In this document: piece by piece, positions 6,129 to 27,899 of the stretch | Layout: each line of letters starts with the position of its first letter | Numbering within the stretch: position 1 is the first letter of the stretch | DNA from: Kiritimatiellales bacterium | Lineage (GTDB): Bacteria; Verrucomicrobiota; Kiritimatiellia; Kiritimatiellales; Pontiellaceae | Direction of reading: 5' to 3' | Assembly (NCBI GenBank): GCA_003246265.1 | Contig: QKAU01000029.1 | Location: forward strand, 1 to 64,000 | Length of the DNA stretch: 64,000 nt | The notes under the pieces: model-generated | Databases searched by the model: none | The model's input: the letters and a program-made list of their open reading frames with translations, nothing else | What the model was told of the DNA's origin: nothing | Made by a program: the position numbers and the translations under genes

Positions 6129-7955
6129 CTACCGCACGGCCTCGACCAGCACCACCCAATCCTTGTCCGGATCGGCAGGGGGCTGGCCGAGCGGCACGAA
6201 GCCATTGCCGCCATCGACCTTGCTGGACGAACCGGGGCGGAGCGCCCCGCCGTGGCGCGGATCGAACCAGCGGACCGTGTAGCGCCCCTTCTCCAGGCTG
6301 AGCTCAGGCGCAACGCCGGCAGGGAGGTAGGCCACATAGGCCTGGCCCGGCTTCGCCAGGCAGAAGCCGTCGCGCACCAGCTTGCCGTTCGGCTCCATCT
6401 CCCAGTAGGGAATGTTGTTGGAGCGGAAGAATTCAAGCAGGTAGCGGCAGTAGTCCCAGAAGCGGTCGCGCGAGCGGTAGTCCTGGCAGGTCATGTCCGA
6501 GTGGGGAAACTTGTAGCCGAAATACCATTCGACCCCCCACCCCCCATTGAGGAACGTGCCCCACAGCGCGTTCTTCCGCGCATTGTAGTGGATGATCCCG
6601 TCGTCGCTGGCGTCGGGGACGAGGGACTGCTGGGCATCGCCGGGCTCGTCGCACGCCACGGCCCACTTCTTGCCGGCCTTTTCGGACAAGGTGTACCATC
6701 GCAGCACCGCCCCCGGCACCTGGCTGAAATCGGTCTTGGAGGTCTGCACCGAAACGCCGGTATACATGCTCTCCGGCCCGAGCAGGTCGTCGAACTGGAC
6801 GCCGTTGTGGATCACGATGTGGTGGTGGTAGGGATCGTGGTCGTGGAAATACTGCGCGCAGGCGAGCCGGTCGGGGGTTTCCTGCGGCGGGGTGGGCAGC
6901 TTGCCCCACTCGCCGCTCTCTTCGCAGATGTTCCAGTTCATGGCCAGATGGTGGCCGAAGCGGGCGATCATCTCGCGGTAGTAGAGCTTGGTCCGCGCAC
7001 CGACCGCACCGTTGTCGAGCAACCCCTGGTTCTCGACCTCCATCAGCTTGAAGTGCAGGAAGATGCCCAGCTGCTGGGCATGGCGGAATACCACTTCCCA
7101 CTGGTCGAGCTTGGAGACATCCATGCGGTCCAGCGTATCGTAGTCGATGTAGGGGAAGACGTTCTGGTCGTCGCCGACGATGTTCAGGGTCAGGAACGAG
7201 ACGGAGTCGAGCCCTTCCGAGGCGATGTAGTTCAGCGCCCCGATGATCGCCTTGCCCTTGCCATCCTTCCACGTCGGATCGCCTTTGCGGTAGTCCTTGA
7301 GGTGGGCTTCCCAGGTTTTCACCAGGTCGTCCTTGTGCCCGTCGTTATGGAAGGTGCCGTCGAAATCCGCATAGGCCAGGAAGTTCTCGGGGGCGTCGGG
7401 ACCGGACTTCAGGAACCATTCGCCGGTTTCGGCCAGGCGCAGATAGTGCTCGCCGACATACTCCAGCCGGCCGCGCGCCCGGAAGTCGGGGTAGGCCTTG
7501 TCGGAGGGGGCAATCTCGAACCGGCCCTGTTCGCCGTCCATGAACTCCGCGCTCTTGCCGCTCTTCTCCTTGCTGCTGATGGCGGTCCAGTCGCCCATGC
7601 GGAAGCTTACGGCATAGGTCCATTCCCCGGTCTGGTCCGGGGCGAAGTGGACCCGCCACTTGTTCCCCTTGGTGGCCGAGGTGTTGCCGGCATCGCCGTC
7701 GGCCGCGAAGTAGCCCGGCACGAGATACTGCTTCCCGGAGGCCGCGTGGCTGAACAGCACGTTGAGCCGGTAGTGGTAGAACGGATTGACCTTGTCGGTT
7801 TCCGATGCCTCCGGTCCGTCGAAGGTCAACGTGACCGTGTGCCACTTCTTCAGCTCGCCGCCGACATCCGTGGCGGCGAACGCCGCCGTGCCCATGGCCA
7901 GTACCGCCAGCGCAGCCAGCCTCCGCGCAATGCCCGATCCGATATTCGTCTTCAT
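6129..7955 (-). CDS. Secreted DUF5060-domain glycoside-hydrolase-like protein
   Basis: The product has 608 residues with a clear signal peptide ending AAFA. The first 90 mature residues (WHTVTLTFDGP ... WRVHFAPDQTGEWTY) form the DUF5060 beta-sandwich. The middle part is a TIM-barrel-like region with the fragments FLKSGPDAPENFLAY and NICEESGEW, as in DUF4038-type putative glycoside hydrolases. The C-terminal 90 residues resemble the collagen-binding-like domain PF12904 (YTVRWFDPRHGG). Related proteins act outside the cytoplasm on polysaccharides, but no substrate is established. Its start lies 34 bases after the acetolactate decarboxylase gene, so the two are likely co-transcribed. An AGGA site lies 8 bases before the ATG. 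Confidence 0.8.
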   Translation of the reverse strand: MKTNIGSGIARRLAALAVLAMGTAAFAATDVGGELKKWHTVTLTFDGPEASETDKVNPFYHYRLNVLFSHAASGKQYLVPGYFAADGDAGNTSATKGNKWRVHFAPDQTGEWTYAVSFRMGDWTAISSKEKSGKSAEFMDGEQGRFEIAPSDKAYPDFRARGRLEYVGEHYLRLAETGEWFLKSGPDAPENFLAYADFDGTFHNDGHKDDLVKTWEAHLKDYRKGDPTWKDGKGKAIIGALNYIASEGLDSVSFLTLNIVGDDQNVFPYIDYDTLDRMDVSKLDQWEVVFRHAQQLGIFLHFKLMEVENQGLLDNGAVGARTKLYYREMIARFGHHLAMNWNICEESGEWGKLPTPPQETPDRLACAQYFHDHDPYHHHIVIHNGVQFDDLLGPESMYTGVSVQTSKTDFSQVPGAVLRWYTLSEKAGKKWAVACDEPGDAQQSLVPDASDDGIIHYNARKNALWGTFLNGGWGVEWYFGYKFPHSDMTCQDYRSRDRFWDYCRYLLEFFRSNNIPYWEMEPNGKLVRDGFCLAKPGQAYVAYLPAGVAPELSLEKGRYTVRWFDPRHGGALRPGSSSKVDGGNGFVPLGQPPADPDKDWVVLVEAVR

Positions 7956-7989
7956 GATCCCATCCTTTTCCTGTTGAAACCCTGCCTCC

Positions 7990-8811
7990 CTAGCGGCTGC
8001 GGTTCACGCTCATCACCTCGGCGGAGCGATCCTTGTTGAGATCCGCCTGCCTTGCCGCCTCGCTGTCGGGAATGAAAACCATCAGGCGCGTGCAGCGATC
8101 CACCCGGGCCACGCTCCCCTCGCCGGTCGTAAAGCCCAGGACATGGCCGCCAAAGGCCCGGTCGTCGCTCAAAAAGTGGCAATGGAATCCGGGCACGTTG
8201 AAGGCGCCGGCATAGGCGGGGTAGCGGAAACCAACCACGGTCCCCGGCATGCCCTCCGCCTCGAAGATGGCCTGTCCCTTGGCGATCTCCGCCAGCGGCG
8301 GATAGGGCTTGGACTGGGCCGGCACGCTGCGGCATTTGATCCGGCTGAAGAGGCCGTCGATCCGCACGGCATGGGGCGCGTTCGGGTTTTCGAGCTTGCC
8401 CTCGATCAGCCGGGTCGCCTCGTCGTAGGAAAGGCCGGGCGGCAGGGGAATCTCCTGGTCGGCATGGAAATGGGCCAGCGTCGCGTAGGGCGTGGTGCAC
8501 GAGCGGTCCATGACGTTGACGTGGCCCGCGAAGTCGATCTGGTAGACGATGCCGTCGAGCATCACCATCTCGCCGTCCATCTTATCGAAGGTTCCCAGAC
8601 CAAAGTCGCCGTAGGGTTCCAGCTCCGCGTAGGAGATGTCGCCGTCGTAGAGCGAGGCCAGCAGCCCGTTGTAGGACGAAAACTGGGTAATCGCATCATG
8701 CTCGAACACGCTGCCGGCATCATGGGTGGCGCACCCCGCCAGCATGATCCCGATCGTCACGAAACCGCATACCCGCAAGCCTGCCTTCAACACCGGGAAC
8801 CTCCTTGCCAT
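7990..8811 (-). CDS. Lipoprotein alpha-acetolactate decarboxylase
   Basis: The 273-residue protein matches alpha-acetolactate decarboxylase (EC 4.1.1.5) throughout: SLYDGDISYAEL, DFGLGTFDKMDGEMVMLDG, and the zinc site PGFHCHFLSDDRAFGGH, with the HxH and the third His 11 residues later. The enzyme converts acetolactate to acetoin and is cytoplasmic in fermenting bacteria. Here it starts with a lipoprotein signal (GIMLAGC), so it should be anchored in a membrane outside the cytoplasm. The ATG at 8811 gives a compact signal peptide; the frame remains open upstream to 8910, but that extension would spoil the signal. No acetolactate synthase gene is nearby. Confidence 0.85.
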   Translation of the reverse strand: MARRFPVLKAGLRVCGFVTIGIMLAGCATHDAGSVFEHDAITQFSSYNGLLASLYDGDISYAELEPYGDFGLGTFDKMDGEMVMLDGIVYQIDFAGHVNVMDRSCTTPYATLAHFHADQEIPLPPGLSYDEATRLIEGKLENPNAPHAVRIDGLFSRIKCRSVPAQSKPYPPLAEIAKGQAIFEAEGMPGTVVGFRYPAYAGAFNVPGFHCHFLSDDRAFGGHVLGFTTGEGSVARVDRCTRLMVFIPDSEAARQADLNKDRSAEVMSVNRSR

Positions 8812-8988
8812 CCTGATCGATTTAACCTTTGAATGTGGGCCATTTCGGCGTCCAAGGCAATCCACGATTCGCATCAACAGCGCCGCGGGCCCAAACCTGC
8901 CGGTACGCAACCAGGATGAAGGGCCGGCCAGGAACCCAACTGCAAAGCGACCGAAGGGGGCTGCGGAAGCGGAGGGCGAAGCTGGCGG

Positions 8989-10197
8989 TCAGGCGTGGTG
9001 GCTCTTCCGGTATTTCGCCGGGGTGATGCCCATCCACTTGCGGAACTGCTTGATGAAGTAGCTCTGGTCGCCGAAGCCGGTTTCGTAGGCGATGTCGGTG
9101 CAGGAGAGATCGCTCTGTTCCAGCAGGCGGCGCGCCTCCTGGATGCGCAGGTAGTGGATGTTCTGCAGCGCGGTCTTGCCGGTCGCCTCCTTGAGCAGAT
9201 GCGCGATCCGGAAGGTGCTCAGGCCCGAGGCTTCCGCGATCTCCTCCAGGGTGATGGCGTCGGTGTAGTTCGCGGCGATGTAGTCGAGCGCCCGGCCTAC
9301 CGCCGGATTGACCGGATTCGCCCCCTGCAGGAAGATGCTGTTCATGAAGTCGTCGAGCGCCTCGCGCAGCACGGTGCACAGGTCGTCGAAATCCTGCGTC
9401 TCGACGATCTGCTCGATCCACTTCATGTGGCGTTCGAGCAGCGGTTCCATGAGCGGGCTGTCCTCCACGGCGGTGCGCACGAGGTAGCCCATCATCTCGA
9501 TGGCGCGGGCACGGACGACGACCGGCTTGGGCGAATAGAGGAACATCGCCGCCAGCATCTTGTTGAACATCTTGCGCGCCCCGGCCCGGTCGCCGACCCG
9601 GATCAGCGAGAGCAGGATGCGCTCGTCGTCGTAGGGGTAGGCCCGGTTCTGCTCCACCTTGCGCTGGTGGATCTCCTCGGCGATCTGCCGCTGCTGCTGC
9701 ATCTGGTCGCGGTTGCGCCGGAGCAGGAGCGGATTCCATCCGCTGTACTGGTAGAAGATCGCGTAGAGCGTGTCGGCCACCTCGCGCACGCCGCCCCGGG
9801 TCCAGGGCCGGAGCGGCTGGATGAATTCCACGGCATCCTTGCGCCGGGCCCCCTCCCCGACCAGGTAGTTGACCGCCGCGTTGACGGAGGCCGGATCGTC
9901 CTCGAGCAGGATGAAGCCCCCGCACAGCCCCCCTTTCAGCTCCTCCCGCTCCACCAGCGGGACGATCCAGCTCATGATCCCCGGCGCGGCGAAGTAGACC
10001 TGCGGCTCGCCCCACCGCACCGCCTCGCCCAGGTTGTGGCAGCGCAGCCGGCAGAGCGTGGGCAGCCGGTCGATGCGTCCAGCCGTTTCGGGCAGGCACA
10101 CGCGCCCCTCGCCATCGATGAGACTGAGGGACAGGCCAAAGCGCTTGCGGTAGTCCCGACCCACGGAATCGAACAGCCTTTTCGACAAGATCGCCAT
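8989..10197 (-). CDS. AraC-family regulator with PocR sensory domain
   Basis: The 402-residue product has an N-terminal PocR-type ligand domain (about 5-150; LFDSVGRDYRKRFGLSLSLID, then CRLRCHNLGEAVRWGEPQ, then GGLCGGFIL). A helical linker follows, and a C-terminal AraC DNA-binding domain with two helix-turn-helix motifs (ITLEEIAEASGLS and DIAYETGFGDQSYFIKQFRKWMGITPAKYR). PocR domains are thought to bind small organic or hydrocarbon-like ligands. The gene is divergent from folD across 164 bases. That gap holds one of four CAGCAAGA-type boxes, so this protein is a good candidate activator of the C1 cluster. The start at 10197 places the PocR domain at the N-terminus. The regulatory link is inference. 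Confidence 0.85.
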   Translation of the reverse strand: MAILSKRLFDSVGRDYRKRFGLSLSLIDGEGRVCLPETAGRIDRLPTLCRLRCHNLGEAVRWGEPQVYFAAPGIMSWIVPLVEREELKGGLCGGFILLEDDPASVNAAVNYLVGEGARRKDAVEFIQPLRPWTRGGVREVADTLYAIFYQYSGWNPLLLRRNRDQMQQQRQIAEEIHQRKVEQNRAYPYDDERILLSLIRVGDRAGARKMFNKMLAAMFLYSPKPVVVRARAIEMMGYLVRTAVEDSPLMEPLLERHMKWIEQIVETQDFDDLCTVLREALDDFMNSIFLQGANPVNPAVGRALDYIAANYTDAITLEEIAEASGLSTFRIAHLLKEATGKTALQNIHYLRIQEARRLLEQSDLSCTDIAYETGFGDQSYFIKQFRKWMGITPAKYRKSHHA

Positions 10198-10256
10198 ATG
10201 GAACCCCGGCCAGACCGGCCAAACATGTTTAATGTAGCCGCATTTAGTCATCATCA

Positions 10257-10298
10257 CAGCAAGAATGCAATACTGTAGAAGGATTCACTCCTATTCTT
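10257..10298 (+). promoter_or_regulatory. C1-cluster promoter box upstream of folD
   Basis: CAGCAAGAATGC begins at 10257, and CTATTCTT begins exactly 34 bases later at 10291, 63 bases before the folD ATG. The same arrangement is seen upstream of three other C1 genes. The expected -35 position is poor, as is usual for activator-dependent promoters. Confidence 0.5.
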
Positions 10299-10361
10299 CC
10301 GCCGCCCGCCTCCCTACCATGGCCCCCTCTAAACGAAAACCACCGGACACGGGAGACGCCC

Positions 10362-11264
10362 ATGGAACATCTGAACATCGACGGCCGCGCCATAGCCCAG
10401 GGCATGCTCGGGAAGACCGCGGCGCAGGTGGCCCTGCTCAAGCAGGAGCACTGGTACCCCAGGCTGGTTTCGATCAAGGTGGGAGAGAACCCGGCGATCG
10501 ACCGCTACATCCGCAACCAGAGGCGCAACGCGGAGCAGGTCGGCATCGAGTTCGAGGAGCGCCACTTCCCCGCCGAAATCTCCGCCGAGGAGGTATCGGC
10601 GACCATCGCCCACCTCAACGTCGACCCCGCGGTGACCGGCATCATCCTCCAGCGCCCCGTCCCCGAACATATCCCCATCAAGGCGATGCAGGAGACGATC
10701 CATCCGCTGAAGGACGTGGAGGGGATGCATCCGAAATCGATCGGCAACATCGTCTACCGCGAACTCGAGCTCGGCCCCTGCACGGCCATGGCCGCCGTCG
10801 AGCTGCTGAAGAGCACCGGCATGAAGCTCCAGGGGCTCGAAGCCACCGTGATCGGCCACTCCGAGATTGTCGGCAAGCCCATCGCCTTCCTGCTGATGGC
10901 CGAGGGGGCCACCGTCACCGTCTGCCACCACATGACCCGCGAGGTGGCCATCCACTCCCGCCGCGCGGATGCCGTCTTCGTCGCAGTAGGCAAGGCGGGG
11001 CTGCTGACCGGCGGAATGATCAAGCCGGGCGCGGTGGTGATCGATATCGGCATCAACGTCATCCAGGCCGATGACGGCAGCGAACGGCTGGTGGGCGACT
11101 GCGACTACGCCTCCTGCATCACGACCGCCGGATGGATCACGCCCGTGCCCGGGGGCGTGGGACCGGTCACGGTCGCGATCCTGATGCGCAACACCCTGGT
11201 CGCCGCCCAGCGGTTGCGAGAACACTATGTACGGCACTTCCAGACCGGCGAGGAATCGCTCTAG
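10362..11264 (+). CDS. folD: FolD-like methylene-THF dehydrogenase with altered catalytic lysine
   Basis: The 300-residue protein aligns along its length with FolD, which interconverts methylene-, methenyl- and formyl-tetrahydrofolate. Conserved signatures include PLKDVEGMHP, the cofactor loop VIGHSEIVGKP and ITPVPGGVGPVT. In E. coli the active-site segment is YVASK, with Lys54 required for cyclohydrolase activity. Here the ungapped equivalent is YIRNQ, so the lysine is Gln53 (codon CAG at 10518). The Gln of ILQRP and the Asp of KDVEG are kept. In human MTHFD1, replacing the equivalent Lys56 removes cyclohydrolase but not dehydrogenase activity. This enzyme may therefore be only a dehydrogenase. 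GGGAG precedes the ATG. Confidence 0.92.
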   Translation: MEHLNIDGRAIAQGMLGKTAAQVALLKQEHWYPRLVSIKVGENPAIDRYIRNQRRNAEQVGIEFEERHFPAEISAEEVSATIAHLNVDPAVTGIILQRPVPEHIPIKAMQETIHPLKDVEGMHPKSIGNIVYRELELGPCTAMAAVELLKSTGMKLQGLEATVIGHSEIVGKPIAFLLMAEGATVTVCHHMTREVAIHSRRADAVFVAVGKAGLLTGGMIKPGAVVIDIGINVIQADDGSERLVGDCDYASCITTAGWITPVPGGVGPVTVAILMRNTLVAAQRLREHYVRHFQTGEESL

Positions 11265-11269
11265 CTTGG

Positions 11270-11311
11270 CGGCAAGATCAGCACATCCATCGGTTAAAAT
11301 GGGCCTTAAAT
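11270..11311 (+). promoter_or_regulatory. C1-cluster promoter box upstream of the MetF fusion gene
   Basis: CGGCAAGATCAG at 11270 matches the shared box CAGCAAGATCGT in 9 of 12 positions. A -10-like TTAAAT lies at 11306, one base off the spacing seen at the other three sites. The gene start is 122 bases further. This is the weakest of the four copies. Confidence 0.35.
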
Positions 11312-11433
11312 TCGGCGAATCCGACACAAAACGGGAAAAACACAGCAATATCCGACCATTTTTATCGGCTATGCGACTATCGCATTTCCGCGCACCGTGG
11401 CAACCTGCACCACCATCGAGAAAGGCCATTTGC

Positions 11434-13860
11434 ATGAAACGTCTGAAGGAGAGCCTGGGGAACGAAGCCGTGTTCACCGTCATCGCCGAGCTGGTCTCGG
11501 GGCGCGGGTACAGCATGGCGCCCATCATCAAGTTCCTGGCGGCACACAAGGAATCGGCCGGCGCGGGCATCCCCGGCGCCTTCGATTTCGCCGGCATCGC
11601 CCTGCCCCAGAACCCGGGCGGCGTGTCGAACCTCGACCCCGGCGACGTCATGGCCCAGCTTGCCGGCACCGGCCTGCTGGACGGGCTCGACTTCATCCCC
11701 CACCTGAGCTGCAAGGACCACAACAAGTCGGCGCTCAACTCCATCCTCGTCGGCTACAAGCAGCGCGGCGTGCAGAGCGTGCTGGCCCTTACCGGCGACA
11801 AGCCGGCCTCGGCCAAGGGGGTCTTCGAGCTGGAATCGGTCGGCCTGCTGCAGCTCATCTCCAAGATGAACCGCAAGGAGCTGCTGGGCGCGAAGGCCGG
11901 TGAACTCGATGGCCTGTCGACCTTCTTCCCCGGCGCGGCGGTCTCGCCGTTCAAGTACACGGAACCCTCCCAGCTGCAGCAGTACTTCAAGATGGAGAAG
12001 AAGGTGGCCTGCGGCGCCCGCTTCCTGGTCACCCAGGTCGGCTGGGACTGGAAGAAGTCGCTGGAACTGAAGCTCTATATGGAGGAGGCGCGGCTCCGGG
12101 TGCCCGTGCTGGGCAACGTCTACTTCCTCACCACCACCAACGCTGCGCCCCGCCTCATGAACAGCGGGAAGCTGCCGGGCTGCCACGTCAGCGACGCCTT
12201 CCTCGCGAAACTCCAGTCGGAGTCGCTGGACGAGCATATCGAACGCGCCGCCCAGCAGGTGGCGATGTACCGCTCGCTCGGCTACGCCGGGGCCGACATC
12301 GGTGGCGTCCACGACTACCCCAGCTTCCTCCGGATCCTCCAGCGGGCCGACGAGATCGGCGAAGGCTGGACCGATCACCGCGACAACCTCTGCTGGGCGC
12401 CGGAACAAGCGTTCTACCTCTACGACCAGCAGGGTGGACGGCAGGAGCCGGAACCCGGCAAGCCCACCCTGCACGACCGCTGGTTCAACGCCGTGCACAA
12501 CGCCCTGCTGGAACCCGACCGCAGGGGATTCCACGCCTTCCGTAAGGTGATGGAAAGAAGCAAGCCCGGCGGCGCGGCGCAGAAAACCCTCTTCGCCGTG
12601 GAGCGGGTCGTCAAGCATGCGGCCTTCTCGTGCGAGGAGTGCGGCGACTGCTACCTCTTCGAGAACTTCGGCTACTGCACCATGGGCGGCTGCGCCAAGG
12701 GGCTGGCCAACGCGCCGTGCGGCGACGCCAAGCCCGACGGCACCTGCGGCAACGAGGACGGCGTACCCTGCCGGGGCGAACAGATCTACCGCGCGGCCAA
12801 GGCCCAGGCGGGCGGACTCGCGCGCCTGCGCCAGACCATCAACAAACCCCGCATCGCTTCGCTGGAGCACACCTCGTCGATCTTGAACTACCTATTCGGA
12901 AAGGACCATACCATGAAAAACGCCATCATCACCATCGGCGAGGACATCCACGCCTCCATCCCCAAGCACGGCGCCGTCATGCGCGACCTCCACGCCCTGG
13001 GCGCGGAGGCCTACGAAAAGGAGAGCCCCCAGCTCGACTACGTCCGCGCCCTCATCGAGAACCAGGCGGCGGAAGGCGCCGACTACATCGCCATCAACGT
13101 CGACGCCTTCGGCGAGTCCGATCCGGCCCTGGCGGCGCGGATCATGGTGGAATACGTCAAGCTGGTCCGCAGGTGGGGCGGGACCGTGCCGGCCTGCATC
13201 GACAGCTCGGACGACAGCGTGCTGATCGCCGGGCTGAAGGAGTGGTACAATACCAAGGATCCCGTCAAGGCCCCGCTGGTCAACTCGATCAAGACCTACA
13301 CCGCCGACCGCATGATGCCCCTGAAGAAGGAGTACGACTTTGCCTTCATCGGCCTGCTGATGAGCGAAGAGGCGGCCGCGCCCGGCGCCATGCAGTCGGT
13401 CGACGACCTGGTCCGGCTGGCCAAGGAGCTCTTCGGCAAGGCGATGCGGCACGGCTTCAAGCCGCAGGAGATCTTCTTCGACACCACCGTATTCCCCCTG
13501 GCCATCGACATGCCGATGCAGCCGGGCGTGCCGGGCTATACCTACCGCGCCTTCGAGACCATCAAGGCCATCAAGGGCGATCCGGCCATGGAGGGCGTCC
13601 ACTTCTCGATGGGCGTGAGCAACTGCTGCCGCGACCTGCCCGGCCGCAAGATCGGCATCTGCCGCGCCTACGTGCAGAAGGCGATGGAGTACGGCCTCGA
13701 CGCCGGCATCGTCAACGCCGCCCACAAGTACGGCACGAAGCCGGCCGATCCCGAGCTGGTCGAGCTGGTCTCCGCCTACGCCGCCATGGACGGCGACATG
13801 GAAAAGACCAACGATGCCATCGAGCTGATGGCCGATTTCTGCGACAACATCCGCGGCTAG
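11434..13860 (+). CDS. Fused methylene-THF reductase (MetF-MetV) and methyl-THF:corrinoid methyltransferase
   Basis: One open frame of 808 residues joins three parts. Residues 1 to about 385 are a methylenetetrahydrofolate reductase barrel (LSCKDHNKSALNS, LALTGDKPAS). Residues of about 395-450 form the cysteine-rich MTHFR_C/MetV domain (CEECGDCYLFENFGYC and more Cys). Residues 494-808 form a pterin-binding methyltransferase (ACIDSSDDSVL, PLVNSIK, GVSN), like the enzymes that move methyl groups between corrinoid proteins and tetrahydrofolate. Normally these are two or three separate genes. GGAAAGGA followed by an in-frame ATG lies at the third junction, so a free methyltransferase may also be made. 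The main start at 11434 follows GAAAGG. The likely role is oxidation or reduction of methyl-THF. Confidence 0.85.
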   Translation: MKRLKESLGNEAVFTVIAELVSGRGYSMAPIIKFLAAHKESAGAGIPGAFDFAGIALPQNPGGVSNLDPGDVMAQLAGTGLLDGLDFIPHLSCKDHNKSALNSILVGYKQRGVQSVLALTGDKPASAKGVFELESVGLLQLISKMNRKELLGAKAGELDGLSTFFPGAAVSPFKYTEPSQLQQYFKMEKKVACGARFLVTQVGWDWKKSLELKLYMEEARLRVPVLGNVYFLTTTNAAPRLMNSGKLPGCHVSDAFLAKLQSESLDEHIERAAQQVAMYRSLGYAGADIGGVHDYPSFLRILQRADEIGEGWTDHRDNLCWAPEQAFYLYDQQGGRQEPEPGKPTLHDRWFNAVHNALLEPDRRGFHAFRKVMERSKPGGAAQKTLFAVERVVKHAAFSCEECGDCYLFENFGYCTMGGCAKGLANAPCGDAKPDGTCGNEDGVPCRGEQIYRAAKAQAGGLARLRQTINKPRIASLEHTSSILNYLFGKDHTMKNAIITIGEDIHASIPKHGAVMRDLHALGAEAYEKESPQLDYVRALIENQAAEGADYIAINVDAFGESDPALAARIMVEYVKLVRRWGGTVPACIDSSDDSVLIAGLKEWYNTKDPVKAPLVNSIKTYTADRMMPLKKEYDFAFIGLLMSEEAAAPGAMQSVDDLVRLAKELFGKAMRHGFKPQEIFFDTTVFPLAIDMPMQPGVPGYTYRAFETIKAIKGDPAMEGVHFSMGVSNCCRDLPGRKIGICRAYVQKAMEYGLDAGIVNAAHKYGTKPADPELVELVSAYAAMDGDMEKTNDAIELMADFCDNIRG
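12898..12915 (+). promoter_or_regulatory. Internal ribosome binding site and ATG at the fusion joint
   Basis: GGAAAGGA (12898-12905) is followed 7 bases later by ATG (12913), in frame with the methyltransferase domain. It looks like the start signal of a formerly separate gene and may still work. This is sequence-based inference. Confidence 0.45.
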
Positions 13861-13888: not shown

Positions 13889-14737
13889 ATGGACGACACG
13901 AGATACGACGCCTACGTACCCGCCGAGATGGCCCGCCGCGCCGAGGCTTCCGCGATCCGCAAGGCCAACCGCGACATCGTCAGCGCCTTCTTCCTGGCGG
14001 TGCAGGCCGGCTCCTTCATCGCCCTGGCCGCCGCCTTCTTCACGCATGTGGTCCACGACTGCACGCTGGGCGTCGGCATCGCCAAGCTGATCGGAGGGGC
14101 CTGCTTCTCGCTCGGCCTGGTCCTGGTCATCATCGCCGGCGCCGACCTCTTCACCGGGGATACGCTGATGGTGATGGGCTGCTTCACCGGGCGGATCACG
14201 GTCGGCCGGATGCTGCGCGGCTGGGTCTTCGTCTTCCTCGGCAACCTCGCCGGCTCGCTGGCGGTGGTGGCGATGGTCTGGGCCAGCGGCCACTGGTCCG
14301 GCAACGGCGGGGCGGTGGGCATCGCCGCGGTGAAGATCGCCAACGCCAAGGTCAACCTGACCTTCCTCCAGGCCTTCGCCAGCGGGATGCTCTGCAACAT
14401 CCTCGTCTGCCTCGCCATCTGGCTCTGCTACAGCGCCCGCTCCGTCACCGACAAGATCATGGCGATCATCTTCCCCATCACCGCCTTCGTGGCCATGGGC
14501 TTCGAACACTCGATCGCCAACATGTACTTCATCCCCGCCGGCCTCGCGGCCCGCCGCAACCCGGATATCTTGAAGCTGCTCGGCGAAGCCGACCTCTCGC
14601 ACCTGACCATTCCCGGCTTCCTCCACAACCTGCTCCCCGTCACCATCGGGAACATGGTCGGCGGCGCCATTTTCGTTGGAACCATCTACTGGCTGCTCTA
14701 CCTTCGCGAACCCATCCAAACCGGAGACAACACATGA
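13889..14737 (+). CDS. focA: Formate/nitrite channel of the FocA family
   Basis: The 282-residue membrane protein has the six-helix FNT fold. It shows [12 protein letters not shown] after the second helix and the family signature [15 protein letters not shown] near residue 210. FNT channels carry formate, nitrite or related small anions across the inner membrane. The gene lies 28 bases after the MetF fusion and overlaps the formate-THF ligase gene by ATGA. Formate is therefore the most likely substrate, and export fits a pathway that ends at Fhs. AAGGGG precedes the ATG. Substrate choice is inferred from context. Confidence 0.92.
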
Positions 14738-16497
14738 AGCTCGATCCCACCAAGATGGCGGACTGGCAGATCGCCGAGGCCGCCGAGGCAACCATCAAAC
14801 CCATCGCCGAGATCGGCCGGAAGCTCGGCCTCCAGGAGGGCGAACTGATCCCCATGGGGCGCAATGTCGCCAAGATCGACTACAACAAGACCTGGAACCG
14901 CGTGAAGGAACTGCCGGTCGGCAAATATGTCGACGTCACGGCCATTACCCCCACCCCGCTCGGGGAGGGCAAGACCACCACCACGATGGGCCTCGTCGAA
15001 GGCCTCGGAAGGATCGGCAAGAAACCGGTCGGGGCCATCCGCCAGCCGAGCGGCGGCCCCACCTTCAACATCAAGGGCTCCGCCGCCGGCGGCGGCCTGG
15101 CGCAGTGCATCCCGCTCGCCCCCTTTTCCCTCGGCCTGACCGGCGACATCGACGCCATCACCAACGCCCACAACCTCTGCATGGTCGCGCTGACCGCGCG
15201 CATGCAGCACGAGGACAATTACGACGACGAGAAGCTTGCCGCCCTGGGGCTGAAGCGGCTCGACATCGACCCCGCGCGCGTCCAGATGAAATGGGCCATC
15301 GACTTCTGCGCCCAGGCGCTGCGCAACATCACCATCGGCAAGGGGGGGAAGATGGACGGCTTCGAGATGGAGTCGGGCTTCCAGATCACCGTCTCCAGCG
15401 AAATCATGGCGATCCTCGCCATCTCCACCAGCCTGAAGGACCTGCGCGGGCGGATCGGAAAAATGGTTGTGGCCTACAGCCGCGCCGGCCAGGCGGTCAC
15501 CACCGCCGACCTCGAGGTGGACGGCGCCATGACCGCGCTGATGGTCGAAGCGCTCAACCCCACGCTGGTGCAGACCATCGAGGGGAATCCCGTCCTGGTG
15601 CATGCCGGCCCCTTCGCCAACATCGCGATCGGCCAGAACTCGATCATCGCCGACAAGCTCGGCATCCGCATGGGCGAATACCTCGTTACCGAAAGCGGAT
15701 TCGGCGCGGACATCGGCTATGAGAAGTTCTGGAACCTGAAGTGCCGCTACTCGGGGTTGAAGCCCGACGCCGTGGTCATCGTGGCCACCGTCCGCGCCCT
15801 CAAGATGCATGGCGGCGGCCCGACCGTGAAGCCCGGCAAGCCGCTCGACAAGGCCTACACCGCGGAAAACCTGGAGTTGCTGCGCGAGGGCTGTTCCAAC
15901 CTCGTCGCCCACATCAACACCGTCAAGCTCAGCGGCGCGAACCCGGTGGTCTGCATCAACGGCTTCTATACCGACACGCCGGCCGAGCATGCGCTCGTGC
16001 GCAAGATCGCCGAGGAGCACGGCGCGCGCTGCGCGGTCTCGGAGCACTGGCTCAAGGGCGGCGAGGGGGCGGTCGAGCTGGCCGAGGCCGTGGTGGCCGC
16101 CTGCGAGGAGGAGAACCATTTCCACCACCTCTACGACCTCGACATGCCCTTCAAGGAGCGCGTCCACGCCATCGCCACCAGGATCTACGGGGCCTCGGGC
16201 GTCGAGTGGTCCGAGGAGGCCGAACGCAAGATCAAGCTCTACGAGTCCGACCCCGAAACCCGCGCCATGGGCATGTGCATGGTGAAGACCCACCTCAGCC
16301 TGTCGCACAATCCCGACTTCAAGGGCGCGCCGAGGGATTGGATCCTGCCGATCCGCGACGTGCTGATCTACAAGGGGGCGGGCTTCATCGTCCCCGTGGC
16401 CGGCGACATCAAGCTGCTGCCCGGCACCGGATCCAATCCGGGGTTCCGCAACATCGACGTCGATGTGGAAACCGGGAAGGTGACAGGATTGTTCTAG
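14734..16497 (+). CDS. fhs: Formate-tetrahydrofolate ligase
   Basis: The 587-residue protein is a full-length formyltetrahydrofolate synthetase (EC 6.3.4.3). It has the nucleotide loop [13 protein letters not shown], followed by [14 protein letters not shown], and [12 protein letters not shown]. The enzyme joins formate and THF using ATP, or runs backwards to make ATP and formate from formyl-THF. The ATG overlaps the focA stop (ATGA), so translation is probably coupled. Placed between the formate channel and the corrinoid genes, it probably closes the methyl-to-formate route; the direction cannot be read from sequence. A GGGGG/CCCCC hairpin lies about 26 bases after the stop. Confidence 0.97.
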
Positions 16498-16605: not shown

Positions 16606-16678
16606 CATTGAACGATATGGCTAAATAGGCATCATCCTGATTTGCAGGCAGACAACCAACCAACCGAGGGAAGTGGAT

Positions 16679-17305
16679 ATGGCAAGAAACGAAGCATTGT
16701 TCGAAGCAGTACTGAAGGGGAAGCGCAAGGACGTGGCCGCGCTGGTCCAGACCGCCATTGACGAAGGGACCAACCTGGAGAGCATCCTGATGGACTCGAT
16801 GGTGCCGGCCATGGCCGAGATCGGCGACCGCTTTTCGCGCAACGAAGCCTACGTGCCGGAAATGCTCATTGCCGCCCGCGCCATGCAGGCCGGGCTCGAC
16901 CTGCTCGATCCGCTGTTGCAGGCCGCCGGACACAAGGCGATCGGCAAGGTGGCCATCGGCACCGTCAAGGGCGACCTCCACGACATCGGCAAGAACCTGG
17001 TGGCCATGATGCTCAAGGGCGCTGGCTTCGAGGTGCTGGACCTCGGCGTCGACTGCGATGTGGAAAAGTACCGCGACGCCGTGGAAAAGGGCGCACAGGC
17101 GATCCTGCTCAGCGCGCTGCTCACCACCACCATGCCCTATATGAAGACGGTGGTCGAAGGCCTCAAGGGCAGCAGCGCAAAGATCCTGATCGGCGGCGCC
17201 CCGGTGACGCAGGCCTATGCCGACGAGATCGGCGCAGATGGATATTCCGACGACGCGAACACCGCGGTCAAGGCCACCAAGGTCGCGCTCGGCATCGCCG
17301 CCTGA
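16679..17305 (+). CDS. Corrinoid methyl-carrier protein (MtaC/MtbC type)
   Basis: The 208-residue protein has the N-terminal helical cap of B12-binding methyl carriers (about 1-85). The Rossmann-like B12 domain follows, with D99-L-H101-D-I-G104; His101 would be the lower axial ligand of cobalt. Further conserved parts are LGVDCD, SALLTTTMPYM and IGGAPVT. Such proteins take methyl groups from a substrate methyltransferase and deliver them to a second one. The ATG at 16679 is preferred over GTG at 16673 because GAGGG lies 8 bases before it. The reactivator gene begins 2 bases after the stop. The substrate methyltransferase that charges it is not certain. Confidence 0.95.
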   Translation: MARNEALFEAVLKGKRKDVAALVQTAIDEGTNLESILMDSMVPAMAEIGDRFSRNEAYVPEMLIAARAMQAGLDLLDPLLQAAGHKAIGKVAIGTVKGDLHDIGKNLVAMMLKGAGFEVLDLGVDCDVEKYRDAVEKGAQAILLSALLTTTMPYMKTVVEGLKGSSAKILIGGAPVTQAYADEIGADGYSDDANTAVKATKVALGIAA

Positions 17306-17307
17306 CC

Positions 17308-18948
17308 ATGGCTGTAAAGATCCATTTCGATGGACGGACGGTCGCTGTCGACAACGGCAGCGGCCGTTCCATTTTGGAGCTGGCCCGCACGGCCGGCTGG
17401 CATATCGAAGCCCAATGCGGGGGCCGCGGCTCCTGCGCCAGCTGCAACGTGATGCTCGGCCCCGGACGCTACCGCGTCTTCGACGAGGAGATCGAGGTCC
17501 AGCCCGAGCAACGCCTCGAGGTGCTCTCCTGCCAGGCGCAGGTGCTCGGCGACGAGGCGGAAGTCTTCCTCCCCCGCGCCTCCGTCATTTCGTTCGAAGG
17601 CGCGCGCATCGCCGACGAGATGGAGATCCCCGAACACGCCTTCGACCCCCGTTCCAAGCGTGGCTTCGGCCTGGCCGTCGATGTCGGCACCACCACCGTG
17701 GTGGCCGCGCTGGTCGACCTGGGCACCGGCGAGGTGGTGGCCCGCGAGTCGCTCTACAACCAGCAGATCCTCAAGGCCGACGACGTGGTCTCGCGCATCT
17801 CCCTGTGCAACACCGAAGGGCAGCTCGAACAGCTCCAGGAACTGGTGGTCGGGCATACCCTCAACCCGCTCATCCACAAGCTCTGCGCCGGAACCGGTGC
17901 ATCCGGATGCGACATTGTCCACGTCGTCCTTTCGGGCAACACGGTGATGATGCATATCTTCTTCGGCGTCTCCCCGGCGCCGATCGGGGTGATCCCGTTC
18001 AAGCCGGCCAGCCGCACCTTCGAGGCGACCGCCGGCGAACTGCGCATCGACATCCGGCCCGACGCCCCCGTCGAGGCGGTACCCGCCATCTCCGGCTACG
18101 TCGGCGGCGACATCACCTCCGACCTGCATGTCTCGAAGCCGTGGAACATGGACGGCCTCGTGGCGCTGATCGATATCGGCACCAACGGGGAGATGGTCGC
18201 CTGCCACGGCGGGCGGATGCATGCCTGCGCCACGGCCGCCGGGCCGGCCTTCGAGGGGGCCGGACTGCTCCATGGAACCCGCGCCGCCAGCCGCGCCATC
18301 GATTCCGTCCAGTACGACGAGAACCTCGACTTCGAACTCGGCGTGATCGGCGACCCCACCCCCATGGGCCTCTGCGGCTCGGCCATCATCGACTTCATCG
18401 CCGAAGGCTTCCGCTGCGGGCTGATCAACGCCTACGGCCGCTACGACCTGGACATGCTGAAGCGCAACGGCCGCTACGAGCGGGTCTGCGGCATGCATGC
18501 CTGCATGCTGGTGGCGCCGGAGCTTTCGGCCACCGGCGAATCGATCACCGTGACGGAGGGCGATATCGCCGAAGTGCTCAAGGCCAAGGCGGCGATCTAC
18601 GGCGGGTTGAAGTCGCTGCTGGCGGAGCTGGGCAAGGGGGTGCGGGAACTCGACCATGTCGTGCTGGCCGGCGGCTTTGCCAAGCACATCAATCTCGAGA
18701 ACGCCATCTGCATCGGTCTGCTGCCCGACATCCGCATCGAAAAATACAAGGTCATCGGCAACGGCTCGCTGGCCGGAGCCGCCCTTGCCCTGCTCGACCG
18801 GTCGACCGGGCCCGCCTACCTGGAGCTTATCGACCGCCTCCAGATCGTCACCCTCAACAAGACCGCGCACTTCATCAACCATTTCCAGGAAGCCCTCGCG
18901 ATCCCCAACCTTGAAACCGATGATTTCCCGTCCGTGGCCGGCCGATGA
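17308..18948 (+). CDS. Corrinoid-activating ferredoxin/ASKHA ATPase (RACo/RamA-like)
   Basis: The 546-residue protein starts with a [2Fe-2S] ferredoxin domain. The cluster ligands are Cys37, Cys43, Cys46 and Cys75 (CGGRGSC, SC, LSC). From about residue 120 comes an ASKHA/DUF4445 ATPase fold with VDVGTTTVVAAL, DIGTNGEM, CGSAIID and VVLAGGFAKH. Such proteins use ATP to reduce inactive cob(II)alamin back to cob(I)alamin on corrinoid proteins. Its position directly after the corrinoid protein supports this partner. It overlaps the DUF1638 gene by ATGA. Confidence 0.95.
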   Translation: MAVKIHFDGRTVAVDNGSGRSILELARTAGWHIEAQCGGRGSCASCNVMLGPGRYRVFDEEIEVQPEQRLEVLSCQAQVLGDEAEVFLPRASVISFEGARIADEMEIPEHAFDPRSKRGFGLAVDVGTTTVVAALVDLGTGEVVARESLYNQQILKADDVVSRISLCNTEGQLEQLQELVVGHTLNPLIHKLCAGTGASGCDIVHVVLSGNTVMMHIFFGVSPAPIGVIPFKPASRTFEATAGELRIDIRPDAPVEAVPAISGYVGGDITSDLHVSKPWNMDGLVALIDIGTNGEMVACHGGRMHACATAAGPAFEGAGLLHGTRAASRAIDSVQYDENLDFELGVIGDPTPMGLCGSAIIDFIAEGFRCGLINAYGRYDLDMLKRNGRYERVCGMHACMLVAPELSATGESITVTEGDIAEVLKAKAAIYGGLKSLLAELGKGVRELDHVVLAGGFAKHINLENAICIGLLPDIRIEKYKVIGNGSLAGAALALLDRSTGPAYLELIDRLQIVTLNKTAHFINHFQEALAIPNLETDDFPSVAGR

Positions 18949-19691
18949 ACCTGAAGCTGGTCAGCTGCGAGATCTTCTTCCGGGAGATGGAATTCCTGCT
19001 GGAGCAATCGCCCCACGCCATCGACGTGGCGTTCCTGCAGAAGGGGCTGCACGACATCCCCGCGGACGAAATGCTCAAGCGCATCCAGGCCCGGGTGGAC
19101 GAGGCGTCGGAGGGTCCTTACGATGCCGTGCTGCTCGGCTACGGCCTCTGCAACAACGGCCTTGTTGGCCTGCGGGCCCGCACCATCCCACTGGTGCTGC
19201 CGCGGGCCCACGACTGCATCACCCTCTTCTTCGGTAGCCGCCAACGCTACCAGACCTACTTCGACGCCCATCCCGGAACCTATTTCAAGACCACCGGCTG
19301 GATCGAGCGCGATGCGGTGGCCGAAGAGCTTAAGCAGCTTTCCATCCCCAGCCGGATGGGGATGGACATGACCTATGAACAACTGGTGGAGCAGTACGGC
19401 GAGGACAACGCCGAATTCCTCTGGGAGGAACTCTGCGACACCAGGAGGAACTACTCCCGCCTCGCCTTCATCGAGATGGGCGTCGAGCCCGACAACCGTT
19501 TCGAGAAGATCGCCGAGCAGGAGGCCCGCGAAAGGAACTGGGTCTACGAGAAGACCGCCGGCGACCTCACCCTGATCCGAAGGCTGCTCAACGGCGACTG
19601 GGACGACGAGGATTTCCTGGTCGTCCCGCCCGGGGCGGCCATCTCCGCGGACCACTCGGAACGCATCGTGCGCATCAGGCCAGATGCTTGA
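18945..19691 (+). CDS. DUF1638 protein
   Basis: The 248-residue product matches DUF1638 by CEIFFREM near the N-terminus, LGYGLCNNG, and PRAHDCITLFFGSRQRY. The family is common beside corrinoid methyltransferase genes, but its reaction is unknown; conserved Cys and His residues could bind metal or cobalamin. The start overlaps the reactivator stop by ATGA, indicating a three-gene operon with the corrinoid protein. Its last 17 bases overlap the end of the convergent AraC gene. Confidence 0.88.
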   Translation: MNLKLVSCEIFFREMEFLLEQSPHAIDVAFLQKGLHDIPADEMLKRIQARVDEASEGPYDAVLLGYGLCNNGLVGLRARTIPLVLPRAHDCITLFFGSRQRYQTYFDAHPGTYFKTTGWIERDAVAEELKQLSIPSRMGMDMTYEQLVEQYGEDNAEFLWEELCDTRRNYSRLAFIEMGVEPDNRFEKIAEQEARERNWVYEKTAGDLTLIRRLLNGDWDDEDFLVVPPGAAISADHSERIVRIRPDA

Positions 19692-22334: not shown

Positions 22335-22347
22335 CAGGAGTCTCGTG

Positions 22348-23127
22348 ATGAAACGTACTGCATTCATTGCGGCCATCGCGCTGTCCGCCACCGCGTTTGG
22401 TTTTTCCCCCTATGAGAACCGCCTGCTCTCCGGCCAGCAGACCCATGTCGCATTGCTTGCCTCGGCCGTGGATGGCACGACTAACGAGTTGGCGGGTGCC
22501 TTTGAAAGGCTGAACGAGAACAAGGTGGCCAAGGCCTTCCGGGAAATCGACATCTCCAACGTCAGCGTCTACTCGAAGACGTTGCAGGGCAAGGTCTGGT
22601 ACCTGGTCTATTTCGACTACGATGGCGACAACTATCTCGATGCCGTCAAGGCTTTCGAATCCGTCGAAGCCGTTAAGGCAATGAAGCCTTTGATGGCCCC
22701 CCATCCCCGGGCGAAGGCAAACGGGACCACGTGGCTCCAGCTGGAATGGATCAACTACATCCACGGAGCCAAACCCAGCGGGAACACCCCAAATCGATTC
22801 TCCATGGTCACGCGCCTTAGGCCCGAAAAGGAAGAGGAATACCGCTGGCTCCATCAAAGTACATGGCCTGGGGTTGTCGACCGCATGACCCGCATGCAGT
22901 ATCACAACTTCTCCATCTTCCTCGTCGAGCTCAACGACGAGATCTATGAATTCTTCTATGTCGAATTCATCGGAACCGATGCCACGAAAGACCAGATGGG
23001 CAGTCTCGCCGATCCCACCTACGAGCGCTGGATCAAGAACACCGACCCCTGCCAGAACCCGCTGCCGGATGCCGACGGCATCTGGTCGATGATGAACCCC
23101 GTTTCAAAATCAAGGACAGAAGAATGA
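22348..23127 (+). CDS. Secreted protein with two L-rhamnose-mutarotase-like domains
   Basis: The 259-residue product has a signal peptide (IAAIALSATAFGF). The second half is a good RhaM/DUF718 domain: FSMVTRLRPEKEEEYRWLHQ, then FSIFLVELNDEIYEFFYVEF and DPTYERW. The first half (about 50-130) repeats the fold more loosely: VSVYSKTLQGKVWYLVYFDY, then MKPLMAPHP. RhaM itself interconverts rhamnose anomers in the cytoplasm, so an exported tandem version is unusual. AGGAG lies 7 bases before this ATG. The stop overlaps the next start by ATGA. Enzymatic activity is not certain. Confidence 0.75.
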   Translation: MKRTAFIAAIALSATAFGFSPYENRLLSGQQTHVALLASAVDGTTNELAGAFERLNENKVAKAFREIDISNVSVYSKTLQGKVWYLVYFDYDGDNYLDAVKAFESVEAVKAMKPLMAPHPRAKANGTTWLQLEWINYIHGAKPSGNTPNRFSMVTRLRPEKEEEYRWLHQSTWPGVVDRMTRMQYHNFSIFLVELNDEIYEFFYVEFIGTDATKDQMGSLADPTYERWIKNTDPCQNPLPDADGIWSMMNPVSKSRTEE

Positions 23128-25550: not shown

Positions 25551-26927
25551 ATGACCGGAAAACAGATTCTTTTGGACGCAATGAGCGGCAAGGAGACGGC
25601 CCGCCCGGCATGGGTCCCCTTCGTGGGCTGCCACGGGGGTTTCCTGATCGGCAAGACGGCCACGGAGTACCTCAAGTCCGCCGAGCTGCTGGTCGAGGGC
25701 CTGAAGAAAGCAAAATCGCTCTACAACCCCGACGGGCTCCCCATCATGTTCGACCTGCAGGTCGAGGCCGAAATCCTCGGTTGCAACCTGCATTGGGCGG
25801 ACGAAGTGCCTCCCGCGGTCACCAGCCACCCCCTGGCCATGGGCAGGAGCCTGGCCGACCTCCCGAAGCTCGACGCCTCCAAGGGCCGCTTCCCGGTGGT
25901 CACCGCCGCCCTGGAGACGCTGAAGAAGGAGATCGGCGACGACACCGCGCTCTACGGCCTCGTCTGCGGACCCTTCACCCTCGCCCTCCACCTGCTGGGC
26001 AACGACATCTTCCTCGACATGTACGACGAGGAGGAGAAGGTCATCGAGGTGATCACCTACTGCGCCGAGGTCTGCAAGCGATCGGCCGACATCTACCTCG
26101 ACCATGGTGCCGACGTGATCGCCGTGGTCGACCCGATGACCAGCCAGATCTCCCCCGACCATTTCGGCCAGTTTGTCACGCCCGCCATGAACGCGGTCTT
26201 CGACCACATCCGCGGCCGGGGCGGGCTCTCCTCCATCTTTGTCTGCGGCGACGTAACCCGCAACCTCGAAGTCATGACGAAAACCCACGCCGACAACATT
26301 TCGGTGGACGAGCAGATCGACATGGCGCATCTGCGCGACCTCTGCCGGGAACAGGAAAAATCGTTCGGCGGCAACATCAAGTTGACGGCCGTGCTGTTGC
26401 TGGGCGACGAGGATGACGCAAGGATGGAAACGCTCGACATCATGGAAAAAAGTGGGAAGCGCGGATTCATCCTGGCTCCGGGATGCGACCTGCCCTATGC
26501 CGTGCCGGTCAAGAACCTGCAGGCGGTCTCGGAGATGGTGCACGACCAGTACGCGCGCGAAGCGGCGAAGTCGATCCAGGCCAAGGAGGCCGACTCGTTC
26601 GACGACGTCGAGCTGCCGGACTACCGCGGTGCCCGCGCCGTCGTGGTCGACGTGATCACGCTCGACTCCACCTCCTGCGCGCCGTGCCAGTACATGATGG
26701 AAGCGGTCCACAAGGCGGCGGAAAAGGCCCACGTGAAGGTCTGGATCAACGAGCACAAGATCAAGGTGCGCGAAGGCATCGGCGTCATGGTCAAGCTGGG
26801 GGTGCGCAACCTGCCGACCATCTGCATCAACGGCGAACCCGCGTTCGCGTCGATCATCCCCGACCAGACCACGCTGGTGAAGGCGATCGAAAAGGCTGCC
26901 ATCAAGAAGATGGTGGACGAACACTAG
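25551..26927 (+). CDS. MtaA/CmuA-like URO-D methyltransferase fused to thioredoxin
   Basis: The 458-residue protein has an N-terminal URO-D fold of about 350 residues resembling MtaA-type methyltransferases (VCGPFTLALHLLG, the VCGD segment, FILAPGCDLPYAVPVKN). From about residue 370 comes a thioredoxin fold with the redox pair CAPC and a cis-Pro loop NLPT. MtaA enzymes bind zinc by H-x-C and a later Cys. Here the His position reads Phe (FVC), while both Cys are kept. The gene has its own C1-type promoter and AGGAG site. Transfer of methyl groups to or from the corrinoid protein is likely but unproven. Confidence 0.85.
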   Translation: MTGKQILLDAMSGKETARPAWVPFVGCHGGFLIGKTATEYLKSAELLVEGLKKAKSLYNPDGLPIMFDLQVEAEILGCNLHWADEVPPAVTSHPLAMGRSLADLPKLDASKGRFPVVTAALETLKKEIGDDTALYGLVCGPFTLALHLLGNDIFLDMYDEEEKVIEVITYCAEVCKRSADIYLDHGADVIAVVDPMTSQISPDHFGQFVTPAMNAVFDHIRGRGGLSSIFVCGDVTRNLEVMTKTHADNISVDEQIDMAHLRDLCREQEKSFGGNIKLTAVLLLGDEDDARMETLDIMEKSGKRGFILAPGCDLPYAVPVKNLQAVSEMVHDQYAREAAKSIQAKEADSFDDVELPDYRGARAVVVDVITLDSTSCAPCQYMMEAVHKAAEKAHVKVWINEHKIKVREGIGVMVKLGVRNLPTICINGEPAFASIIPDQTTLVKAIEKAAIKKMVDEH

Positions 26928-26993: not shown

Positions 26994-27899
26994 ATGATTC
27001 CCATTTGCCTCATAACCGGTTTCCTCGGAACGGGGAAGACCACCCTGCTGAAGCGCATCGTGGCGGAAAACCGCGACCGCAGATGGATCTACCTGGTCAA
27101 CGAGTTTTCCGCCCTGGACGTGGATGGCGCCATGGTTTCGGAGGAACATCCCGACGTGGTGTCCATCCCGGGCGGCAGCATCTTCTGCAAGTGCCTCGTC
27201 ACCGAGTTCATCGGCCAGATGTCGCGGATCCCCGGGCACCATCCCGATGCCGAAGGGGTGGTGATCGAGGCCAGCGGCATGGCCGATCCGCGCGTGATTG
27301 CCGACATGCTCAGGGAAACCCGGCTCGACCGCTTTTTCACACTGGCCAACATCGTAAGCATCGTCGAGCCGCGCAGCTTCCTGCGCCTGATCCACACGCT
27401 GCCGAACATCATCCACCAAGTCCAGGCGGCCGACCTCGTCCTGCTGAACAAGTGCGACCTGTTCGATGAGGCGCGGTTGCAGGATACCGAGGCGGCGGTG
27501 CGCAACATCAAGCCGAACGTCCAGCTTGTACGCTGCGTGCGCGGCGAAGCCCGCTTCGAGGTTCTCGGGAACGGCGCCTGCCACGACGCGCTGCATGGCG
27601 AATACGCCAAGTGCCGCGACCCGCGCTTTTCCACCTTCACCACGCCGGGCTTCGACGCCGCCGTGCTGCGGCGCTTCATCGAGGCGAACGAAGCGGCGGT
27701 CTACCGCGTCAAGGGCCACGTCCCTTCGGACGGCGGCATGCTCTACTTCGACTACTCCAAGGCCGGATTCGCCACCGCGCCCGCGGCCGGGGGAAGGGAC
27801 CACGGCCTCGCATGGATCGTGCGCGGCGGCGAAGAGGCCTTGGACGGCGAGCGGGTTTGCACCCTAGTCGGCAAACTCGAACGAGGCGATGTTGAATAG
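26994..27899 (+). CDS. CobW/COG0523-family GTPase
   Basis: The 301-residue protein has the P-loop GFLGTGKTT at residues 9-17, the variant metal motif GGSIFCKC in place of CxCC, EASGMADP, and the guanine-specificity loop NKCD. The C-terminal part includes VYRVKGHVP, as in CobW proteins. Family members deliver metals such as zinc or cobalt, or assist cobalamin proteins. Its place 66 bases after the URO-D/thioredoxin gene suggests it serves this B12- and zinc-using methyl transfer system. CGGAG precedes the ATG. Confidence 0.92.
   Translation: MIPICLITGFLGTGKTTLLKRIVAENRDRRWIYLVNEFSALDVDGAMVSEEHPDVVSIPGGSIFCKCLVTEFIGQMSRIPGHHPDAEGVVIEASGMADPRVIADMLRETRLDRFFTLANIVSIVEPRSFLRLIHTLPNIIHQVQAADLVLLNKCDLFDEARLQDTEAAVRNIKPNVQLVRCVRGEARFEVLGNGACHDALHGEYAKCRDPRFSTFTTPGFDAAVLRRFIEANEAAVYRVKGHVPSDGGMLYFDYSKAGFATAPAAGGRDHGLAWIVRGGEEALDGERVCTLVGKLERGDVE

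Follow-up and report, generated by a model that had tools for sequence, protein, structure and literature searches.

A MetF–MTHFR_C–methyltransferase fusion in Pontiellaceae: probable origin from overlapping genes, a candidate internal start, and a possible role in corrinoid-dependent methyl oxidation

The fusion gene and its genomic surroundings

In the window, i.e., the whole 64-kb stretch of DNA analysed here, one stop-free frame of 808 residues joins an MTHFR (MetF) domain, a Cys-rich MetV-type domain, and a methyl-THF:corrinoid methyltransferase in a single chain (Table 1). Such a three-part fusion had been proposed in a sequence-only reading of this DNA, and it is borne out by the translation, by three Pfam domains over threshold, and by two predicted barrels. 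The Pfam matches to MTHFR (residues 84–274), DUF5981/MTHFR_C (382–465), and Pterin_bind (535–730) all exceed the gathering score.

Table 1. Features of the fusion locus (positions in the window)
Feature	Position	Strand	Remarks
AraC/PocR-type regulator	8989..10257	-	divergent, conserved with the operon
FolD, methylene-THF dehydrogenase/cyclohydrolase	10362..11264	+	Pfam, synteny
Fusion gene, MTHFR (MetF)–MTHFR_C (MetV-type)–methyl-THF:corrinoid methyltransferase	11434..13860	+	808 aa
MTHFR (beta/alpha)8 barrel	11437..12360	+	residues 2–309; structure match, E. coli MetF alignment
MTHFR_C/DUF5981 domain, Cys-rich	12577..12828	+	residues 382–465; Pfam and alignment
Conserved tail SLEHTSSILNYLFGKDHT	12856..12912	+	about residues 475–493; hinge of the fusion
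Shine-Dalgarno-like GGAAAGGA	12898–12905	+	codons GGA AAG GA.
Methyltransferase barrel	12913..13860	+	residues 495–808 by fold match; also candidate free 315-aa product from Met494
FocA-type formate/nitrite transporter	13889..14737	+	domain match, synteny
Formate-THF ligase (Fhs)	14734..16497	+	start 14734 or 14755
Stand-alone corrinoid protein, MtgC/MtbC-like	16673..17305	+	B12-binding cap and domain
RACo-type corrinoid reductive activator	17308..18948	+	2Fe-2S, RACo middle and C-terminal domains
DUF1638 protein	18945..19691	+	
MtaA-like (URO-D family) methyltransferase	25551..26927	+	C-terminal Thioredoxin_3 domain
CobW-type GTPase	26994..27899	+	adjoins the URO-D methyltransferase

The N-terminal domain belongs to the MTHFR family (PF02219; 64.7 bits against a cut-off of 24, fold Z 23.6), and its residues E19, D122, and Q201 align with the catalytic Glu28, Asp120, and Gln183 of E. 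coli MetF. The middle domain is a MetV/MTHFR_C domain (PF12225; 50.8 bits against a gathering score of 23) with eight cysteines invariant in the family alignment (C400, C403, C406, C415, C420, C429, C438, and C446); since the published ferredoxin-linked MetVF enzymes contain iron (PMC8760232), it is a probable Fe–S electron relay. The C-terminal part is a pterin-binding barrel of the MeTr type (Z 27) with all four active-site residues, D590, N617, D683, and N730 corresponding in the alignment to D75, N96, D160, and N199 of Moorella MeTr. In an alignment of 23 family sequences, all seven catalytic residues of both barrels are invariant.

An AlphaFold2 model built with the 23 family sequences (mean pLDDT 78.7) predicts two complete barrels. 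In a fold search with this model, residues 2–309 matched a solved MTHFR (8eac_B, Z 23.6), and residues 495–808 matched pterin-binding methyltransferases (3k13_C, Z 27.0) including the O-demethylase component 4o1e_A (Z 26.9), so that a barrel border falls at the joint. The hinge (474–495) is predicted with low confidence, pLDDT being below 50 at 474–482 and 488–495. A PDB sequence search with the single MetF-domain sequence gave no match, while profile and fold searches did.

The gene order in Pontiellaceae is a divergent AraC/PocR gene followed by FolD, the fusion, FocA, Fhs, the corrinoid protein, RACo, DUF1638, the URO-D-thioredoxin protein, and CobW; at some loci, FolD is not found beside the fusion. 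DUF1638 is a known genetic partner of RamA/RACo in Phaeobacter (PMC5764234). Within the genus (28 genomes), RACo and the URO-D-thioredoxin protein, the latter 81–87% identical among Pontiellaceae carriers where complete, are almost confined to genomes that have the fusion or what is left of it; one genome (G013), whose assembly is fragmented, has both proteins with no fusion detected. At 22345–24365 of the window, a second URO-D-family protein, a possible substrate methyltransferase with no PDB match by sequence, adjoins an L-rhamnose mutarotase domain protein. A cobalamin riboswitch was not found, the only Rfam match in the 64-kb window being a tRNA.

Distribution and origin of the fusion

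Nine other Pontiellaceae genomes (69–79% identity to the window protein) have uninterrupted fusions running from start to stop, as do about 15 Planctomycetota MAGs (Phycisphaerae, Sedimentisphaerales; 56–64%). A sample of 288 genomes of the window phylum contains seven full fusions, five of which, about 42% identical, are of a more distant type; the two-domain MetF-MTHFR_C protein alone, ending near the joint, is found in about twenty genomes of this sample. The search in related genomes suggested by the sequence-only reading thus yielded intact full-length homologues (57–79% identity) in many independent assemblies, which excludes a sequencing error hiding a stop at the joint, near 12890. The other objection raised there, that relatives might all have separate genes, proved false, though many relatives do encode the parts separately.

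Several loci depart from the intact form. In Pontiella sulfatireligans F21, a type strain (L053, about 11023–11107), the fusion is spread over two frames near residue 342, owing either to a frameshift present in the genome or to a mistake in the assembly. In G027 (L059, G027:C12:505000-524500, about 14120–14380), the operon is kept while the fusion gene is nearly all lost, about 27–38 C-terminal residues remaining between FolD and FocA; in G025, it is likewise reduced to a C-terminal remnant of 46–51 residues. At one Phycisphaerae locus (L055, 10750–11420), additional in-frame stretches break up the N-terminal half of the fusion, whose frame comes to 1069 residues.

The joint bears marks of how the chain was formed. 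Its conserved tail SLEHTSSILNYLFGKDHT corresponds to the C terminus of the unfused MetF-MTHFR_C proteins, which stop at this place with the common tail TSxWxNxxLxRDH, the last part varying as (G)(K/R)DH. A separate methyltransferase gene directly follows the split MetF-MTHFR_C gene in several genomes (G056, G093, G124, G153, G161, and G335). The methyltransferase gene of G056 starts at an ATG within the final codons of the gene before it (GGA GGG CGG GAT CAC C-ATG), and its Shine-Dalgarno sequence shares nucleotides with the codons for the RD motif; the window joint reads GGA AAG GAC CAT ACC ATG. The earlier suggestion that GGAAAGGA and the ATG at the joint are a former start signal is supported by this arrangement, split proteins ending there and G056 having a start and a ribosome-binding site on the same codons. 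Because the overlap of the two G056 genes falls exactly at the position of the joint, the fusion was probably born from overlapping neighbours, metF-MTHFR_C and the methyltransferase gene, brought into one frame. We infer from the two junctions, rather than from a reconstruction of the event, that a frame change between overlapping genes would suffice to create it.

In a maximum-likelihood tree built on the methyltransferase part only, all fused methyltransferases form one clade (support 99.9/98), whose sister group is the split methyltransferases encoded beside a MetF-MTHFR_C gene (joint support 100/100); the two together stand apart from AcsE, MetH, and the alphaproteobacterial MtgD. A single origin of the fusion is well supported by this topology. 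A free methyltransferase of the planctomycete G063 (L079, 4765–5778), encoded next to carbamoyl-phosphate synthase genes, is nested within the fused clade, and thus the methyltransferase part can exist alone again; the G063 fusion itself has no internal ATG.

Codon constraint at the internal start

The ATG at 12913–12915 encodes Met494, and translation from it would give the 315 C-terminal residues. The mere presence of GGAAAGGA upstream is weak evidence, as most of it is already dictated by the G-(K/R)-D motif of the protein, which leaves the choice of codons free. It is this choice that appears constrained. Among ten Pontiellaceae, synonymous-site conservation over the entire gene is highest at codons 489–498 (z 3.4), and with amino acids and tree controlled for, codons 489–499 show 8 synonymous changes against 18.1 expected (P 0.001). 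Of 354 codon segments compared, those at the joint take ranks one, two, four, and five; the segment 726–736 reaches a similar P. GGA489, ACC493, and AAA495 are fixed in all ten, the last two flanking the ATG directly. Gly489 is one of only two single-codon columns among 49 invariant glycines, and the sole one with GGA, a codon that makes up 5–27% of Gly codons in the Pontiellaceae fusion genes, while Lys495, just past the ATG, is the only single-codon column among 15 invariant lysines. The predicted pairing of the internal Shine-Dalgarno sequence (-4.6 kcal/mol) is only moderate, above the median of the other in-frame ATGs though not the best.

Selection thus appears to have kept the former ribosome-binding site and start codon in Pontiellaceae, and on this ground it is about an even chance that a free 315-residue methyltransferase is also made, as had been suggested before. 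The part of that suggestion that held concerns Pontiellaceae, where the nucleotides are constrained; it did not extend to Planctomycetota carriers, which show no synonymous-constraint signal at the joint and of which five (L045, L047, L051, L052, and L054) have no ATG, GTG, or TTG there. The loss of the start codon in these five argues for a relic, with GGAAAGGA forced by the G-(K/R)-D-H tail and no free methyltransferase made, as does the retention of the tail motif in split proteins that end there, including that of G055, which has no directly following methyltransferase. Such an explanation is somewhat short of even odds, since it does not account for codon choice being fixed beyond the residues in Pontiellaceae, where the joint ranks top of all codon segments for synonymous constraint. 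In-frame internal starts giving needed C-terminal products are described, for example, for SpaO (PMC13059759) and Cas11b (PMC11899642).

Possible role and comparison with known systems

The reading preferred here, with a probability of roughly 0.6, is that in Pontiellaceae the fusion takes part in corrinoid-dependent methyl oxidation to formate. By analogy with MtgC, MtgD, and MetF2 of Ruegeria, it would accept the methyl group carried by the corrinoid protein and oxidise the resulting methyl-THF. A substrate methyl group would be passed to the corrinoid protein via the URO-D methyltransferase; the C-terminal barrel would transfer it between corrinoid protein and tetrahydrofolate, and the N-terminal MetF barrel with the MetV-type domain would interconvert methyl-THF and methylene-THF, so both steps would take place on one chain. 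FolD would convert methylene-THF to formyl-THF, from which Fhs would release formate with the gain of ATP, FocA exporting the formate, while RACo and DUF1638 would keep the corrinoid active. The fusion, its conservation and single origin, the operon, the catalytic residues, and the synonymous constraint are shown by the analysis; the direction, substrate, electron acceptor, second product, and channelling are the parts of this model that we infer.

What the carriers lack and possess narrows the choice. Neither CdhC/ACS, in the window genome (G000) and ten other Pontiellaceae carriers tested, nor MttB (PF06253), in the window genome and the genus, was found, so the Pontiellaceae route is neither acetogenic nor betaine-fed, and both an acetogenic (Wood–Ljungdahl) role and MttB-fed betaine catabolism of the MtgBCD type were rejected for this family. 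Elsewhere in the window genome, there are a complete five-domain MetH and a homocysteine methyltransferase-MetF protein, and with a complete MetH, a methionine role for the fusion would be redundant. The two genes lie side by side (L066, contig C80), the housekeeping homocysteine methyltransferase-MetF gene at 6155–8038 and MetH at 7981–11754.

Observations that count against the oxidative reading come from several sides. Since every step is reversible, the genes alone do not fix the direction, and formate-to-methyl flux for some acceptor is possible. With methanol, formate, or H2/CO2, no growth of Pontiella isolates was seen (PMC7356697); strain F21 formed formate only as a minor product on carrageenan (PMC6388578). 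G027, with its operon kept and its fusion nearly lost, and G013, with RACo and the URO-D protein and no fusion, also speak against it. Because the species with minor formate encodes 2-O-methyl-fucosidases (PMC7356697), O-methyl sugars can be guessed as the methyl donor. In favour of the oxidative reading, a methyl-to-formate route is viable in a formatogenic Acetobacterium mutant (PMC10284823).

The picture in Planctomycetota is different in part. The fusion there often lies about 450–500 bases after a ThiD2-ThiE gene, and in Sedimentisphaerales and related genomes (L060, L062, L063, and L065), a protein of about 310–325 residues precedes RACo and is a radical SAM protein in L060, L062, and L065. 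No full-length MetH was seen in most Planctomycetota carriers, a B12 protein of roughly 210 aa and RACo are present, and a second, separate MetF lies in a frame of 620–710 residues, that of G058 being a homocysteine S-methyltransferase/MetF. This pattern fits the folate half of a split B12-dependent methionine synthase, in which the fusion would make methyl-THF and load the stand-alone corrinoid protein, a separate homocysteine methyltransferase would use the latter, and RACo would be the activator; Phaeobacter (PMC5764234) and Ruegeria (PMC12478193) are known to have split synthases that come with RamA and DUF1638. Such a role is likely for many Planctomycetota carriers and unlikely as the main one in Pontiellaceae, and overall this explanation is rather improbable: the window genome does not belong to the split-synthase class, it and its relatives have both a complete MetH and the Hmt-MetF protein, and an Fhs and a formate transporter in the operon are not needed for methionine synthesis.

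Still less probable is that the fusion serves as the methyl branch of a Wood–Ljungdahl or another reductive one-carbon route from formate or CO2 to methyl-corrinoid. Its neighbours at single loci point that way, namely CODH/ACS genes about 4 kb off (L054), Fhs and an NAD-linked formate dehydrogenase on its two sides (L051), or a preceding corrinoid protein, Fhs, and FolD (L080), but besides the Pontiellaceae carriers, 15 of 17 Planctomycetota carriers also have no CdhC/ACS, several of these genomes being incomplete MAGs. The fusion is best regarded as a module that works in both directions between a corrinoid protein and methylene-THF and that serves different pathways. For polysaccharide-degrading Pontiellaceae, a fuller version of the oxidative reading, in which one gene has two selected products (the 808-residue methyl-oxidising chain and the free 315-residue methyltransferase) at the core of a methyl-to-formate pathway, perhaps fed by O-methyl sugars, is offered tentatively and seems doubtful as a whole.

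No description of the three-domain chain or its operon was found in the searchable literature, and nothing specific turned up there on C1 metabolism of Kiritimatiellota, although the parts and the logic of the fusion are already known. The locus suggests that marine Kiritimatiellota have a corrinoid-dependent methyl-to-formate route not recognised before. It offers a concrete example of overlapping genes that fused while an internal start was retained, and provides a single chain on which the channelling of methyl-THF between two active sites could be examined.

The same parts occur in Alphaproteobacteria (Ruegeria, Phaeobacter, Sinorhizobium, and Paracoccus), namely a methyltransferase, a MetF paralogue, MTHFR_C, a corrinoid protein, RACo/RamA, and DUF1638 (PMC12478193, PMC5764234), and in Sinorhizobium and Paracoccus, these and MttB are encoded next to one another. 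In Ruegeria, betaine demethylation and methionine synthesis both require MtgD, the pterin protein, and MtgC, the corrinoid protein; MetF2 is induced there, and oxidation of methyl-THF has been proposed as its role (PMC12478193). In Phaeobacter, DUF4445 (RACo) and DUF1638 support B12 reactivation (PMC5764234). The alphaproteobacterial parts, in contrast to the fusion, are separate genes in the order MTHFR_C-metF-methyltransferase and work with MttB-family methyltransferases, which are absent from the window genome and its genus. Direct descent from that operon was rejected in view of the different gene order, the identity of only 28% between MtgD and the fusion methyltransferase, and their separate clades.

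The MetVF-type MTHFR of acetogens resembles the fusion in combining MetF with a MetV-type Cys-rich partner, which implies Fe–S-mediated electron transfer, but MetV is a separate protein there, and none of the MetVF enzymes of PMC8760232 and PMC9012536 has a methyltransferase in the same chain. The methyltransferases of O-demethylase and CODH/ACS systems (4o1e, 2e7f) share fold and active-site residues with the fusion, whereas they are free proteins and about 20–30% identical to its methyltransferase part. The two-domain MetF-MTHFR_C proteins of Verrucomicrobiota are 33–36% identical to the N-terminal 493 residues of the fusion and have the same RDH tail; their chain stops at the joint, and the adjacent methyltransferase, where found, is a separate gene.
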